DNA of 64,000 nucleotides from Acidilobus sp. 7A (GTDB lineage: Archaea > Thermoproteota > Thermoprotei_A > Sulfolobales > Acidilobaceae): positions 992,001 to 1,056,000 of the forward strand of contig NZ_CP010515.1 of assembly GCF_003431325.1 (NCBI RefSeq), read 5' to 3'. Of the stretch, positions 35,308 through 46,805 are shown one piece after another. Numbering within the stretch: position 1 is the first letter of the stretch; every line of letters begins with the position of its first letter. Both the position numbers and the translations under genes were made by a program. A model generated the notes under the pieces. That model had not been told where the DNA came from and did no database searches. It worked only from the letters and a program-made list of their open reading frames with translations.

Positions 35308-35973
35308 GTGGTAAGCTTGAACCTGAAGTTACTAATCGTGGTCATAGTTATTGTAGTAGCTGTGGCCGTTGGCGGCACCTACGCGGTGCTCCTAAGGCAC
35401 ACAAGAACCACAACAACAACGTCGCTAAGCCAGCTCTTCAGCGAGAGGCCCGGGGAGCTGAACAGCAGTGAGCTCTCATCGATGCTTGGCGGCAACTGGA
35501 CCATGCTCACCAACGCCTCCTTCGTTGCCGTGGTCAAACAGAGCGAGGGCAAGCTCTATGTTGAGTACATAAACGGCACCAGCAAGACCCTTAACCTCAC
35601 GAGCGGGCTTGAAATGGTTGGCCCAACTGGTCAGGCCAACGGGGGCTACCCGCTGTGGGTGGCGGGCTACTTCTACTACTACAAGGCGTCCCCGAACGCA
35701 ACTTACGTGCTTGGCATAGAGGTTTTCAGGGCGACTAACTCGACTCAGGCCAACTGGACCCTGTCGGCCGTGGAGAACTACTACAAGGTCCCGCCCAGCA
35801 CCCTGGACGGCCTCACGTATGTTGAGCTGAGGCCCTACGCGCCGCTCTCCAACATTACCTTCGTCTACGCCTCCTACAGGTCAACGTACATTATCGTGGT
35901 TATGTCCTCCACGAACGCCAGCGAGGGCAGCATAGCGCAGGTGGCTATGGCCTCCGCTAGGAACCTGCCGTGA
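35308..35973 (+). CDS. Membrane-anchored extracellular protein, unknown function
   Basis: 221 residues. One N-terminal membrane span (about 5-27; LLIVVIVIVVAVAVGGTYAV) is followed by RHTRTTTTTS and an extracellular domain rich in Asn, Ser, Thr and aromatic residues, with about ten N-x-S/T sequons typical of surface glycoproteins of crenarchaea. No catalytic motif was recognised. GTG start about 30 bases after the TATA box AGTATAAAAACG (35273-35284), so the mRNA is leaderless or nearly so. The repeat element described next begins right after its stop. Confidence 0.7.
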   Translation: MVSLNLKLLIVVIVIVVAVAVGGTYAVLLRHTRTTTTTSLSQLFSERPGELNSSELSSMLGGNWTMLTNASFVAVVKQSEGKLYVEYINGTSKTLNLTSGLEMVGPTGQANGGYPLWVAGYFYYYKASPNATYVLGIEVFRATNSTQANWTLSAVENYYKVPPSTLDGLTYVELRPYAPLSNITFVYASYRSTYIIVVMSSTNASEGSIAQVAMASARNLP

Positions 35974-35975
35974 AG

Positions 35976-36189
35976 GGGTTCAGCTCCTACATGGGTTCAT
36001 TGTTTTACAGTAATCGCCTCACCCCTGTTCCCCCGCGTCCCGCTCGGGGCCTCATCGGGCCTGGGGCGCTCAGGGTTACCTGGGGCCCCAAGCCCTGAGT
36101 AGCCTCAGGGGCTGGCGGCCCTTCACCCCCTCACAGGGGATCCCGCCGATGAGCATATGCGGTATAATGAACCTTAAAACTATGTGAAA
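35976..36189 (+). repeat. Short dispersed element, copy A (about 214 bp)
   Basis: This intergenic block is repeated in inverse orientation at 40279-40472. The first about 115 bases align well with the complement of 40360-40472, including the exact block CCCTGTTCCCCCGC (36023-36036 here, 40410-40423 there) and ATCGCCTCA just before it. The outer ends resemble each other as inverted repeats: GGGTTCAGC...GGTTCATT on the left and, read on the other strand, GTTTCACAT...GGTTCATT on the right. The right end overlaps the UDG start and supplies its TATA (GGTATAATGA). It may be a MITE-like element or a conserved RNA/regulatory module. Confidence 0.6.
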
Positions 36190-36885
36190 CCCGAAACAGT
36201 TGCAGAGCGGACCAGCTTTAGCCTCGGCCAGCTAAAGCCTAGCCGAGAGGTGCCGCGCGTGGGGGAGGAGAAGAGGGAACTGTACAACAGCATAGTCGAG
36301 GCTGTGAGGAGCTGCAGGGCCTGCCCCCTTCACAGGCTGAGGACCAACGCCGTGCCGGGCGAGGGGAACCTTGAAGCTAAGGTGATGTTTGTGGGTGAGG
36401 CCCCCGGAAGGAGCGAGGACGAGCAGGGCAGGCCCTTCGTGGGCGCTGCGGGACAGCTCCTCAACGAGCTCCTCCTGAGGGCCGGCCTGAGGAGGGAGAA
36501 CGTCTACATAACCAACGTCGTCAAGTGTCGCCCCCCTAACAACAGGACCCCCACAGAGGAGGAGGTGGCTGCCTGCGTCGGCTTCCTCAGGCAGGAGATA
36601 GCCCTCGTGAGGCCTAAGGTGATAGTCGCCCTCGGCAACACCGCTGGGTCTACAATAATGGGCCTCGCCGGGAGGCAGTGGAGGGGGGTCACGGCCGAGA
36701 GGGGCAGGAAGGCTAAGGTCACCGTCGAGGGCGTAGAGGTCATAGTCGTGCCAACTTACCACCCGGCCGCGGCGCTCTACAGGCCTGACCTGAAGGAGCT
36801 CCTGGCCGATGACATAGCCGAGGCCGCCAGGGAGGCCTCAGCGCAGGGCACCAGGAGGACCCTGCTCGACTTCATGGGCGGCTGA
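36184..36885 (+). CDS. udg: Family 4 uracil-DNA glycosylase
   Basis: 233 residues from the GTG at 36184 (GTG 36250 or 36259 are later options, as the TATA boxes are close). The iron-sulfur cysteines begin with SCRACPLH (Cys44, Cys47) and continue in VVKCRPPNN and VAACVGF. Motif 1 is GEAPGRSEDEQGRPFVG and motif 3 has the histidine in VVPTYHPAAALYRP. It removes uracil arising from cytosine deamination, a serious problem at high temperature. The window also holds a family 5 enzyme and endonuclease V. Convergent with the S16-type protease. Confidence 0.92.
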   Translation: MKPETVAERTSFSLGQLKPSREVPRVGEEKRELYNSIVEAVRSCRACPLHRLRTNAVPGEGNLEAKVMFVGEAPGRSEDEQGRPFVGAAGQLLNELLLRAGLRRENVYITNVVKCRPPNNRTPTEEEVAACVGFLRQEIALVRPKVIVALGNTAGSTIMGLAGRQWRGVTAERGRKAKVTVEGVEVIVVPTYHPAAALYRPDLKELLADDIAEAAREASAQGTRRTLLDFMGG

Positions 36886-38779
36886 CAGAGGCCACGTACT
36901 TCTTGTAGGACCACAGAGAGGCCGCGGCCACCGCCGTGGCCCCTAGGGCCATCGCGGCCAGCACGAGGGCGGCGGTAAGCACGGGGCTCTGGCCCGCCAC
37001 CTGCTGCTGGGTCGCGGGGGCACCGCCGTAGCTGATGGCGCCCAGGTACCACGCTAGCTCGTCTATCACGGCCGTCTCCATGATGTAGATCGCGTCCTGG
37101 GGGTCCGTGGGCAGCAGCGTCTCCGCGTAGCTCATGTAGGAGCTGTCCAGGGAGCTGCCCAGGCCCCTCATGGAGAGGGCAGAGCCCAGCAGGGAGTACT
37201 CGGCCTCAAGCTCCCTGACGTAGGGGCCCACCACTGCCGGGTTTGAGAAGTTGCCGCTCTCGATGAATATTATGTTGAGCGCGTTGGTCAGGGCGTCCTC
37301 ATAGACGCCTATGGAGGCCACGTAGTAGCCCTGGGAGAGCAGCTGGTCGCCCTCCTTAACAAGGAAGTTCAGGTCGCCCTCCATTGACTGGAGTGCCTGG
37401 GCCTCGGCTATGTCACCTATGCTCTCGAACTGCTGGACGTAGTAGTTTATCAGTGAGTCGGCGTAGTTTATGGCAGTGTCAGTGAAGGACCCCAGCGCCT
37501 CAGCGGTTGATGACACGAGGCCTGGGGAGAGCAGCGGCCCTAGTCCCCTGGTCGCGTTGGCTGCCACGACCCAGCCCACGGCGCTCTCTATCCTAGCCTT
37601 GGCGACCCCCAGGTAGTAGGCGGGCACGTAGGCCAGGCTTATGTTAATGCCCTGCGAGGCGCTCGACGCGTAGCCCGCGTAGTAGAGCGAGTCGGCCAGC
37701 CTGGCGAAGGCCGTGGCCAGCAACTCCTCATAGGCCAGGCCGTAGGAGGCGTTTGAGTAGTTCGTGAGCCGCGAGAGCGCGCTGGTGGCCTCAGAGGCCA
37801 CCTCGTTGGCCTGGCCTGAGAAGAAGCCCTGGAGTGACCCGCCCGACGCGTAGACCCTGTAGGCCCATACCGTGTAGTTTGCCGCCAGGGCGTCTATGTA
37901 CGCTGTGAAGGCGTAGCTTGCGGCCGCGTAGGGTATGGAAGTCAGGTACCTCTGGGCCAGCTCCAGGTCCTGTTGGCTGTTGTTAACAAAGCTCTCGACC
38001 TCGCCGCTGACAGGCGCCGGGAGGCCCTGGAGGCCGAGGCTGCCTATTACGGCCCTGCTCGAGTTTATGAAGCCGTCAGCCACCTCCTCCATGGCTGAGT
38101 TGAATGGCGGCAGGGGCTGCACGCTCAGGCTGACGTTGAACCTGTAGGCCTTCAGTACCTTCGCTAGGGCGCTCACTATGCCTGCCACCGGCACCTGCTC
38201 GCTGTCGTTGCACAGCACAATGCCGCCCAGGTTGCCTACGGGGTAGACTATGCCAAGCCCGTCCTCCTGGGCGGCCTCGCACTTGTAGGACAGCCCGCCT
38301 ATGGGGCCTGAGAGGCCTGATGGCGAGGCCGCGCCAGTTATAGCGTAGTCGTGGAGGTACGTGCTGTTAAGTCCTGTTGCCAGCGAATAAACTGCGAGAA
38401 GGACGCCGAAGCTGCCGCTGGGCCCCGATATCTGGCCGCTCACATTTATATGGACGTTTAGGTTGTAGTACCTCCAGTCGAGACCAGCGTACGTCATGGC
38501 CACCATGAAGGCCGTCTCAATGCTGTAAAGCGTCGAAGGCTGAGCCGGGCCGCTGTTGTCCGTGACGGTGACCTTGCCGGTCCCGGGGTATGAGAGCGTG
38601 ACCGTGGCGTTTGTGACGACCCCGGAGGTGCCCTCGACGGCGGGCAGCAATATCCACGCGCTCCTACTCCACGACGACACTGGCTGGGCCCTGGAGGGCC
38701 TCGCGAGGGCTGAGGCCGCGACAAGCGACGCTATAACCATGATGACTAGCAGGAGGGCCAGGCCCCTGCGTCCGCTCAT
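36872..38779 (-). CDS. Secreted, membrane-anchored Lon-like (S16) serine protease
   Basis: 635 residues. An N-terminal signal peptide (1-26) is followed by a domain with the Lon catalytic layout: Ser121 in SGPSGSFGVLLAV and Lys166 in GPIGGLSYKCEAA, 45 residues apart as in Lon. There is no AAA ATPase part. The remaining extracellular region is helical and rich in N-glycosylation sequons and ends with one membrane span (about 603-628) and a short basic tail. This matches an archaeal family of secreted S16-like proteins (COG1750). Its substrate and energy independence are open questions. Overlaps the UDG gene end by 14 bases. Confidence 0.8.
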   Translation of the reverse strand: MSGRRGLALLLVIMVIASLVAASALARPSRAQPVSSWSRSAWILLPAVEGTSGVVTNATVTLSYPGTGKVTVTDNSGPAQPSTLYSIETAFMVAMTYAGLDWRYYNLNVHINVSGQISGPSGSFGVLLAVYSLATGLNSTYLHDYAITGAASPSGLSGPIGGLSYKCEAAQEDGLGIVYPVGNLGGIVLCNDSEQVPVAGIVSALAKVLKAYRFNVSLSVQPLPPFNSAMEEVADGFINSSRAVIGSLGLQGLPAPVSGEVESFVNNSQQDLELAQRYLTSIPYAAASYAFTAYIDALAANYTVWAYRVYASGGSLQGFFSGQANEVASEATSALSRLTNYSNASYGLAYEELLATAFARLADSLYYAGYASSASQGINISLAYVPAYYLGVAKARIESAVGWVVAANATRGLGPLLSPGLVSSTAEALGSFTDTAINYADSLINYYVQQFESIGDIAEAQALQSMEGDLNFLVKEGDQLLSQGYYVASIGVYEDALTNALNIIFIESGNFSNPAVVGPYVRELEAEYSLLGSALSMRGLGSSLDSSYMSYAETLLPTDPQDAIYIMETAVIDELAWYLGAISYGGAPATQQQVAGQSPVLTAALVLAAMALGATAVAAASLWSYKKYVASVSRP

Positions 38780-38911
38780 CCTTGGTCTTCCCCAGCTCCT
38801 GCCCCCTGCAAGACTTTTAAGCTAAGATAGGAACGCGCCTAAACCTTGGCCTTGCGGCCTCCAGCTCTATTATTTAAAAAGGTTAGGCGCCAGGGAAGGC
38901 GAGGGTAGGCT

Positions 38912-39439
38912 ATGGGCGGCAGGAAGCAGACTAAGATGAAGGAGGCATCCGTGGACGAGAAGGCCAGCACAACAAAGGAGCTCAGGATAGCGCCCGTTCA
39001 GGTGATAACTAAGGACAAGGTTATGCAGAACCAGAAGCTCATGTCCTTGGTGTACCTGGTCAGCAGGCTCGGGCCCCTTCACGAGAGGACCCTTCACATG
39101 GTCGTCAACGAGGTCCAGACCAAGGGGTTTGACATGGGCTACCGCTTCTCCAAGATAGGCGAGGACCCCTACAGCCCCTCGCTTAAGAACGACATAGTCG
39201 CGCTCCTCTACGTAGGCTTCCTTGAGGCTGAGCCCAGGTACAAGAAGCTTGCCGTGAGCTCAGCGGGCAAGGAGGCCCTGGAGAAGGCCGGCGTCCCCAA
39301 GGGCCTTCAGGACGTGGTTGAGGGCTCCGTGCAAGAGCTGAAGGCTAAGGGCTCCATGATGGACGCCAGGATAGACGTGGAAATTAAGAAGGGCATTGGC
39401 GGGGGGCGCCGCCCCTCGAGGTCACCCCTGGGAATCTAG
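38912..39439 (+). CDS. Conserved crenarchaeal protein, possible winged-helix
   Basis: 175 residues, basic. An N-terminal lysine-rich tail (MGGRKQTKMKEAS) leads into a helical domain (about 40-120) with the pattern LMSLVYLVSRLGPLHERTLH, NDIVALLYVGFLEAE and YKKLAVSSAGKEALEKAG. The last reads like the end of a winged-helix domain. The C-terminus is again basic (GGGRRPSRSPLGI). DNA or RNA binding is likely from composition and pattern, but no named family is recognised. ATG start after a TATA-like TTATTTAAAAAGG (38869-38881). Confidence 0.6.
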   Translation: MGGRKQTKMKEASVDEKASTTKELRIAPVQVITKDKVMQNQKLMSLVYLVSRLGPLHERTLHMVVNEVQTKGFDMGYRFSKIGEDPYSPSLKNDIVALLYVGFLEAEPRYKKLAVSSAGKEALEKAGVPKGLQDVVEGSVQELKAKGSMMDARIDVEIKKGIGGGRRPSRSPLGI

Positions 39440-45648: not shown

Positions 45649-46123
45649 GCCCCATCCCCTGGGTCAGCTCCCTTATCGCGCCCCACGGCCCCAGCTTCCT
45701 CCTCATCACCTCCAGCAGGTCCAGGAGCATGAGCTGCTCCTCCGACTCAGGCCCACATCCCCTGGCCCCCTCAAACAGGTTCACGGCCTCCTCAGGGGTC
45801 ATGTTGTGGAACAGCACGAGGTAGCCTGAGACCACGGTGCCCGTCCTGCCGCAGCCGGCGTAGCAGTGCACGTAGACCCTCCTGCCCTGGCCTAAAAGCC
45901 TTGCAATTGCAGCTATGGCCCCTGCCGTGTTTCCTATTGGCTCGACCTCCATGTCCCTTATCGGGTAGACCTCCCTTGAGGCCCCGCTAGCCTCGGCGGG
46001 GCAGGAGGGCTCAAGCGTTATTATCGCGTCGACGCTTATGCCATAATCGTCAAGGTCGACGCAGCCGGGGCCGGCGTAGAGCCCCTTTATCACCTCAGCC
46101 GGCTCATCCCTCATGTCATTCAC
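45623..46123 (-). CDS. Dual-specificity protein phosphatase
   Basis: 166 residues. The cysteine phosphatase loop HCYAGCGRTG (HCx5R) is intact, with the general acid aspartate probably in YPIRDMEVEPIG. Archaeal members remove phosphate from tyrosine and serine/threonine; targets here are unknown. It starts inside the end of the family 5 UDG gene (8-base overlap) and overlaps the CitG-like gene, giving a tight three-gene operon of apparently unrelated functions. Confidence 0.88.
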   Translation of the reverse strand: MNDMRDEPAEVIKGLYAGPGCVDLDDYGISVDAIITLEPSCPAEASGASREVYPIRDMEVEPIGNTAGAIAAIARLLGQGRRVYVHCYAGCGRTGTVVSGYLVLFHNMTPEEAVNLFEGARGCGPESEEQLMLLDLLEVMRRKLGPWGAIRELTQGMGLGDALSGL

Positions 46124-46805
46124 CTGCCAGCCCAGCTAGCTCCTTGGCCCTCTCAAATATGGCCCTCAGGCCCTCAATGGTCAGCGTCCCGGTGTTCACG
46201 TTCCTTGGGCTCGGGTGGTAGCTAGCTATGAGCCACCTGCCGTCGGGCAGCCTGTACTCAGCCCCATGCTTGAACTCAGGCCTGACGTTGAAAATTCTGC
46301 AGAGCTGCTCAAACGCCAGCCTGCCGAGGGCCACGAAGACCTTGGCGTTCGGGAGCAGTGATATCTCCTCCCTCAGGTATGGGAAGCAGTTCTCCACCTC
46401 CTCCCTTAGGGGCCTGTTGTCGGGCGGGGCGCAGTGAAGGGCTGCAGTTATGTAAACGTGGTATACCTGAAGGCCGTCGTCCCTGCTCACGCTGACGGGC
46501 CTATTCGCGAGCCCAGCCTCGTAGAGGGCCCTGAAGAAGTTGTTGCCAGACTGGTCCCCCGTGAACATCCTGCCCGTCCTGTTGCCGCCGTGAGGCGCGG
46601 GCGCCATCCCAACGATCACTATTGGGGCCAGGGGGTCGCCGAGGCTTGGGACCGGCCTTGACCAGTAGGCCTGGCCCCTGAACCTCCTGGGCGGGTTGAG
46701 GCCTACCTTGACGTCGAACTCCCTAAGCCTTGGACACCTGTTGCACGCCAGTATCTCCTCCTGCAGCTCCCTGAGCCTCCTCAGCCTCTCATCAGTTGCC
46801 TGCAA
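46116..46805 (-). CDS. Family 5 uracil-DNA glycosylase (UDGb)
   Basis: 229 residues. Iron-sulfur cysteines start at LACNRCPRL and continue in AALHCAPPDN and VENCFPYL. The family 5 motif 1 is GMAPAPHGGNRTGRMFTGD, where alanine replaces the usual polar catalytic residue, and the motif 3 histidine is in IASYHPSPRN. UDGb removes uracil, hypoxanthine and related bases from DNA. It is first in the operon with the phosphatase and CitG-like genes. Confidence 0.9.
   Translation of the reverse strand: MQATDERLRRLRELQEEILACNRCPRLREFDVKVGLNPPRRFRGQAYWSRPVPSLGDPLAPIVIVGMAPAPHGGNRTGRMFTGDQSGNNFFRALYEAGLANRPVSVSRDDGLQVYHVYITAALHCAPPDNRPLREEVENCFPYLREEISLLPNAKVFVALGRLAFEQLCRIFNVRPEFKHGAEYRLPDGRWLIASYHPSPRNVNTGTLTIEGLRAIFERAKELAGLAGE

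Follow-up and report, generated by a model that had tools for sequence, protein, structure and literature searches.

The 64,000-nucleotide stretch of Acidilobus sp. 7A DNA analyzed here (the window; bases 992001 to 1056000 of a single 1.54-Mb contig, completeness 99.94%) encodes on its minus strand a 635-residue protein with a Lon-type (S16) peptidase domain. We propose, with a probability of roughly 0.7, that this protein is a membrane-anchored serine protease at the outer face of the cytoplasmic membrane, in the pseudo-periplasm under the surface layer, where it cuts flexible or unfolded exported segments. A signal peptide would send the chain out of the cell. There, the Lon-type domain would fold without any ATPase and cut with a Ser121-Lys166 dyad aided by Thr148; a domain of 12 helices would select or present substrates or restrict their access, and a single C-terminal helix would hold the enzyme to the membrane with its N terminus outside. 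Exported or membrane proteins would be cut at flexible or unfolded segments, in surface processing or quality control; with neither an unfoldase nor ATP to be had outside the cell, such segments are the expected targets. The activity of the protein, its orientation in the cell, the task of its helical domain, and its substrates are what we infer from computed features, namely, the fold, the conservation of residues, the lack of an ATPase domain, the export and anchor signals, and the association of the protease and helical domains in the class. The likelihoods that we attach to architecture, activity, substrate type, and helical role are judgements rather than computed values. The parts follow one another in the order signal peptide, protease domain, helical domain, membrane anchor, and short basic tail.

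36872..38779, minus strand: whole gene of the predicted exported S16 protease, 635 aa, ATG start (open reading frame [ORF] and translation)
38702..38779, minus strand: predicted signal peptide, residues 1–26 (hydropathy and sequence; cleavage after ALA at 24–26 likely, judged by eye)
38141..38665, minus strand: Lon-type protease (S16) domain, residues 39–213 (Pfam and VIA-align)
38417..38419, minus strand: predicted catalytic Ser121, within GPSGS (S in 60/60 covering rows)
38336..38338, minus strand: Thr148, opposite a Thr of the LonB protease domain (T in 60/60 rows; alignment)
38282..38284, minus strand: predicted catalytic Lys166 (K in 60/60 covering rows)
38279..38281, minus strand: Cys167, possible disulfide partner of Cys190 (co-occurrence in family rows)
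38210..38212, minus strand: Cys190, possible disulfide partner of Cys167 (co-occurrence in family rows)
37028..38110, minus strand: 12-helix domain, residues 224–584 (separate structure model)
36926..36982, minus strand: predicted C-terminal transmembrane anchor, residues 600–618, with basic tail (hydropathy)

The part of the protein that follows the predicted signal peptide is predicted to adopt the Lon fold. Pfam Lon_C (PF05362) matches with an E value of 6.7e-5, passing its curated cut-off narrowly (23.0 bits versus 21.1). Among the 27 aligned family members (the window protein and 26 homologs aligned with it along their full length at 71–22% identity), 13 match Lon_C at E ≤ 0.001, the window protein included. 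Lon_C is the sole Pfam match in the whole protein to E 1, and residues 214–588 searched alone gave no Pfam match; the chain thus contains no AAA+ domain. In a sequence search of the PDB, the top match was the protease domain of Archaeoglobus fulgidus LonB (1z0b, E 3.6e-6), improving to 5.9e-12 when a profile of 15 sequences was used. The AlphaFold2 model of the protein, built from 15 sequences (mean predicted local distance difference test [pLDDT] 85.0; predicted template modeling score [pTM] 0.82), was assigned to the Lon P-domain fold by Foldseek (E 6.5e-7); PDB titles met there show bortezomib bound to Lon domains. Using VIA-align, residues 39–213 superposed on the protease domain of Bacillus subtilis Lon (8dvh_A) with a Z score of 21.9 and an rmsd (root-mean-square deviation) of 2.0 over 168 residues, and on Escherichia coli Lon (1rr9_A) with a Z score of 21.5.

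The active-site residues are strictly maintained. In the 1z0b alignment, Ser121 falls on the S of GDSAS, Lys166 on the K of QKIEAA, and Thr148 on a Thr. Sixty distinct family sequences cover the active site (an additional row, a fragment, falls short of it), and all 60 carry the same Ser, Thr, and Lys, with a Thr148–Lys166 spacing of 18 throughout. The Ser121–Lys166 spacing is 45 here, 43–46 in 52 of these sequences, and 41–48 in all of them, compared with 43 given for E. coli Lon (S679/K722; PMC2605481) and 45 for YlbL (S234/K279; PMC6051672). The serine motif reads GPS, as in the PKDGPSA of LonA (PMC2605481), whereas LonB has GDS. An earlier note, made from the DNA letters, had described 36872–38779 as an extracellular Lon-like protease with a Lon catalytic pair, Ser121/Lys166, at standard spacing and with no ATPase. 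The ORF list and translation confirm the gene at exactly these positions, and the LonB alignment, the conservation of the pair, its spacing, and the Pfam search agree with the rest of that description. So do structure prediction against Lon P-domains, a check that the note suggested, and a profile hidden Markov model search for S16 similarity, the lack of which the note would have counted as refutation. Together, the fold, the lack of an ATPase domain, and the conserved residues support a predicted ATP-independent Ser-Lys protease, and we consider it probable that the protein is proteolytically active.

Both ends of the protein suggest export and anchoring, as the earlier note had also held. 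Hydropathy peaks at 2.83 over residues 7–25, with ALA at 24–26, and again at 2.23 over residues 600–618, ahead of a tail that contains K, K, and R. Across 60 ORFs of the family with more than 450 aa, a hydrophobic stretch (hydropathy over 1.6) occurs within the first 70 residues in 57 and near the C terminus in 56. In 55 of these 56, the count of K plus R is higher after the C-terminal helix than before it, which places the tail inside and the remainder outside. Residues 32–590 contain 13 N-X-S/T sequons versus 4.2 ± 1.8 in shuffled sequences, none of 2000 shuffles reaching this number. Sequon density in the family has a median of 1.67 per 100 aa (60 ORFs) versus 0.29 in 211 neighboring ORFs of at least 200 aa, a rough comparison because these neighbors are mechanical ORFs.

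A pair of cysteines may also reflect the outside location. Cys167, which adjoins the predicted catalytic Lys166, and Cys190 are both present in 32 of the 60 covering rows and both absent from 27, with one alone in a single row. On a quick tree the pair maps to one group and one change (support 76). Because a single change suffices, the pair counts once, and we rejected it as independent covariation; a Cys167–Cys190 disulfide outside the cell is a plausible candidate. The N terminus could instead stay uncleaved and serve as an anchor, or the protease domain could face the cytoplasm and work with a separate cytoplasmic ATPase, given that the export assignment draws on hydropathy, sequence, and conservation alone. 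Such arrangements sit poorly with the basic residues after the C-terminal helix in 55/56 ORFs, with the threefold excess of sequons over shuffles, with the Cys pair of one clade, which fits an oxidizing outside, and with the ALA motif, which fits cleavage; we regard them as very improbable. The exported, membrane-anchored architecture, read from these signals, is in our judgement highly likely.

Folded separately, the region between protease domain and anchor yields 12 helices with high confidence (pLDDT 90.4; pTM 0.89). A Foldseek search of the PDB with this domain returned no match at E ≤ 0.001. With helical models, VIA warns about Z scores up to about 13, and the best match here reached 10.2. 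The VIA matches mostly span residues 28–297 of the 375-residue model and barely cover its last part; those to talin, vinculin, a lyase, and designed helices (Z ≤ 10.2) were not believed, being under the warning level. TPR_2 is matched weakly by five of 15 family members (E ≤ 1, best 5.6e-5) and not by the window protein. TPR proteins are absent from the best 50 VIA rows, an absence that excludes nothing. With weak profile hits and no clear fold match, a TPR superhelix was rejected as a firm call.

A profile of the helical domain found matches in 55 of the class's 126 genomes, and all 63 matches listed lie within S16 ORFs (coordinates compared by eye), implying that, within the reach of the profile, the domain is reserved for this protease. 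Because S16-linked sequences of a single lineage went into the profile, it may have missed more distant relatives that occur apart from S16. Tyr284 and Tyr439 in the helical domain are identical in 58/58 covering rows, as constant as the dyad, which indicates that this domain also holds a conserved task. Because the domain is linked to the protease and has no other role in sight, it may gate or recruit substrates, a role to which we give about even odds. It is a confidently predicted module for which the PDB searches made here found no convincing solved counterpart.

We likewise give about even odds that the enzyme attacks surface proteins where they are unfolded or flexible, with specific processing as a strong rival. 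The protease may, like SepM, process one or few exported proteins or peptides, such as a surface-layer protein, a pilin-like protein, or a signaling peptide, with the helical domain as docking site, and have no part in general quality control. For SepM and for YlbL, the target described is a single peptide or protein (PMC6051672, PMC8545107, and PMC11197336). The helical domain is found only with the protease, as expected of a dedicated recognition module, and the two paralogs that occur in different parts of the tree in at least five genomes would fit separate substrates. However, no substrate gene is conserved beside the S16 gene in the 20 loci of 16–19 kb that we compared, and the spread of the protein well beyond one family fits housekeeping equally. 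Specific processing strikes us as possible rather than probable, and cutting of flexible or unfolded segments remains the preferred explanation.

The protein is widely kept. It has a match in 50 of 60 related genomes; two genomes of the same genus retain it nearly full length at 72% and 58% identity, and relatives at 43–46% identity occur in an Acidilobaceae archaeon, a Caldisphaera sp., and two Candidatus Hestiella. Searches with the family profile gave a match in 92 of the class's 126 genomes and in 96 of a phylum sample of 200. Many of these matches span the protease part alone, so that the phylum figure is not a tally of this architecture, and some in the wider phylum lie in ORFs of about 190–360 or 840–930 aa. 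Other lineages of the phylum likewise have S16 ORFs that are shorter, at about 190–360 aa, or longer, at about 900 aa. At seven loci in related genomes, there is a second S16 paralog of 609–718 aa that lacks the Cys pair. Copy number varies within the window's taxonomic family: the window's genus (three genomes) and a Caldisphaera-like genus (four genomes) have one match per genome, and 16 of the remaining 18 genomes have at least two, which in at least one of the 16 are two pieces of one ORF.

Lon_C itself has a single match in the window's own genome, the window protein, and matches in 91 of 151 genomes of the phylum sample. In the window's order, all 29 Lon_C matches listed (18 genomes) are ORFs of 560–725 aa at places that the exported-family searches also list (positions compared by eye). 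Among the matches listed, ORFs of at least 735 aa with Lon_C, possibly LonB or other fusions, occur in other lineages only. With no LonB-type match among those listed for the order, the S16 fold seems to be used there exclusively on the outside.

The family was not found in any of the 18 listed genomes of one family of the class, which we take to be Sulfolobaceae, and Sulfolobus acidocaldarius is the only one of 14 control genomes with no Lon_C match. A Ser-Lys dyad requires an unprotonated lysine, and loss of the exported family in acid is therefore plausible; this acidophile pattern rests on few independent events. A MEROPS-based survey associates secreted S16 peptidases with thermophilic archaea and families A05, A37, and S53 with acidophilic archaea (PMC6411800). 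More speculatively, and in our view doubtfully, a Lon domain freed from its ATPase may have been exported throughout the Thermoproteota and have gained a dedicated 12-helix substrate-gating domain, for example, as a cage on a ring that Lon domains would form. It would then have become a main ATP-independent surface protease, kept as one copy in moderate acidophiles and lost in extreme acidophiles (Sulfolobaceae), where the dyad would no longer be workable outside.

Several observations weigh against an active protease at the outer face of the membrane. In a third genome of the genus (84% complete), the gene is in two pieces with an internal stop, a sign of either decay or misassembly. The neighbors of the S16 gene in the loci compared gave no functional hint. 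PF02516 (STT3) has no match in the own genome and none in 17 of 40 genomes searched. TIGR04154 gave two matches in the own genome (E 1.2e-16 and 7.9e-15; 58.2 and 52.2 bits) far under its cut-off of 450, in a search that a cyanobacterial control also matches. N-glycosylation was dropped as a firm reading on these grounds. Of the "glycosylated-type helical region" of the earlier note, the 13 sequons and the 12 predicted helices stand, and glycosylation is represented by sequons only; we keep the enrichment as weak evidence for export alone. In addition, Acidilobus is an acidophile, and an external Ser-Lys dyad would meet a pH tending to protonate the lysine; the strict conservation of Ser, Thr, and Lys argues that the dyad would work anyway.

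The Lon domain could also be a noncutting scaffold or sensor, with the helical domain carrying the function, perhaps that of a chaperone or surface-layer anchor. RadA and ComM have the same fold and are not known to be proteolytic, and some residues of the helical domain are no less constant than the dyad. In vitro, YlbL lacking its membrane segment is described as showing no activity after purification (PMC6051672), which suggests that an isolated archaeal domain may be inactive as well and counts among the points against a working protease. Because Ser, Thr, and Lys are invariant in 60/60 sequences, a dead enzyme is not expected, and we consider a pure scaffold unlikely.

The S16 gene stands by itself, and we read the genes around it as synteny. 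Upstream, 132 bp (38780–38911) separate it from a divergent gene for a 175-aa protein (38912–39439, plus strand; starting MGGRKQ), an arrangement found in 7/7 A-type loci of the window's family (own included). The intergenic stretch holds TTTTAA and ATTTAAAAA motifs, which we take to resemble archaeal TATA boxes. A Pfam search with the 175-aa protein gave no credible match, and it is, as an impression only, small and winged-helix-like with a basic tail. Downstream, a uracil-DNA-glycosylase gene (Pfam; 36184–36885, plus strand) converges on the S16 gene, overlaps its 3′ end by 14 bp, and adjoins or nearly adjoins it in nine of the 20 loci; the genes at 36184–36885 and 46116–46805 form one similarity cluster. 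An operon was rejected because the divergent neighbor varies in other families and the glycosylase gene is reversed in one genome. At 35308–35973 (plus strand) lies a gene for a 221-aa protein with an N-terminal hydrophobic stretch, a Thr-rich linker, and about ten sequons (by eye); it has relatives in both other genomes of the genus compared and no Pfam match. As to other proteases, thermopsin was sought in the own genome and not found, and neither was M41/FtsH, a result that means little given that no archaeal control matched. Four ORFs of 1169–1339 aa with subtilisin (S8) matches, near positions 878759, 123765, 1236723, and 117280 of the contig, are possible large surface proteases.

At the domain level, the window protein is an S16 family member and not LonA or LonB. 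MtaLonC (4fw9; Z 18.2) is likewise a Lon-fold protease; it is ATP-independent, keeps a degenerate AAA-like module, and is not known to have an export signal. Archaeal LonB (A. fulgidus, T. onnurineus, and M. jannaschii) shares the protease-domain fold and the dyad and supplies the best sequence hits but has an AAA+ domain that the window protein lacks, and the NCBIfam LonB cut-offs are missed by far (29.6 versus 723.3 bits and 26.6 versus 516.6 bits). LonB is central to the current view of archaeal membrane proteolysis. It is described as an ATP-dependent, membrane-bound protease with domains facing the cytoplasm, in a review that presents it as widely represented in archaeal genomes (PMC4343526).

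Nearest in working principle are SepM of Streptococcus and YlbL/DdcP of Bacillus, which resemble the window protein in being membrane-tied S16 proteins outside the cell with no ATPase (here as predicted from sequence signals) and, in YlbL, in the dyad. YlbL, DdcP, and SepM are homologs. YlbL is described as a transmembrane segment, PDZ domain, and Lon domain without an AAA+ part, and a section heading states that it needs its putative catalytic residues (S234 and K279) for function (PMC6051672). SepM is given a transmembrane segment at 10–26, a PDZ domain at 131–195, and an S16 domain at 233–314 (PMC11197336), and is reported to trim three residues off a pheromone outside the cell (PMC8545107). 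The order of parts differs: SepM has an N-terminal anchor, then PDZ, then a C-terminal S16 domain, whereas in the window protein S16 comes first, followed by the 12-helix domain and the C-terminal anchor. The window protein has no PDZ match in Pfam to E 1 and no match to the SepM family NF041438 at E ≤ 1; four of the 27 aligned family members match NF041438 at E ≤ 0.001 (best 2.6e-5).

Among the open-access papers listed in literature searches, judged by title and start of abstract, there was no experimental study of the archaeal family, and COG1750, presumably the COG of such archaeal proteins, retrieved no paper as a query. The available text of PMC5898192 and PMC3189178 does not mention an archaeal exported S16 family, and that of PMC8105010 contains none of the terms sought. 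The window protein probably belongs to the secreted S16 group of thermophilic archaea in the survey, whose available text gives a statistical association alone, with no architecture, structure, or function (PMC6411800). An S16 protease acting outside the cell without ATP, called poorly studied in the earlier note, seems so for this archaeal family; the description needs qualifying because ATPase-free external S16 proteins are already known in bacteria (SepM and YlbL/DdcP) and secreted archaeal S16 peptidases at the level of that survey. What is new is the combination of an S16 domain with a dedicated helical domain, itself with no convincing solved counterpart, and a C-terminal anchor. The family is a clear candidate, open to testing, for processing proteins or controlling their quality at the surface of crenarchaea, and may offer a naturally occurring example of a Lon domain that needs no ATP to work, perhaps even at low pH.

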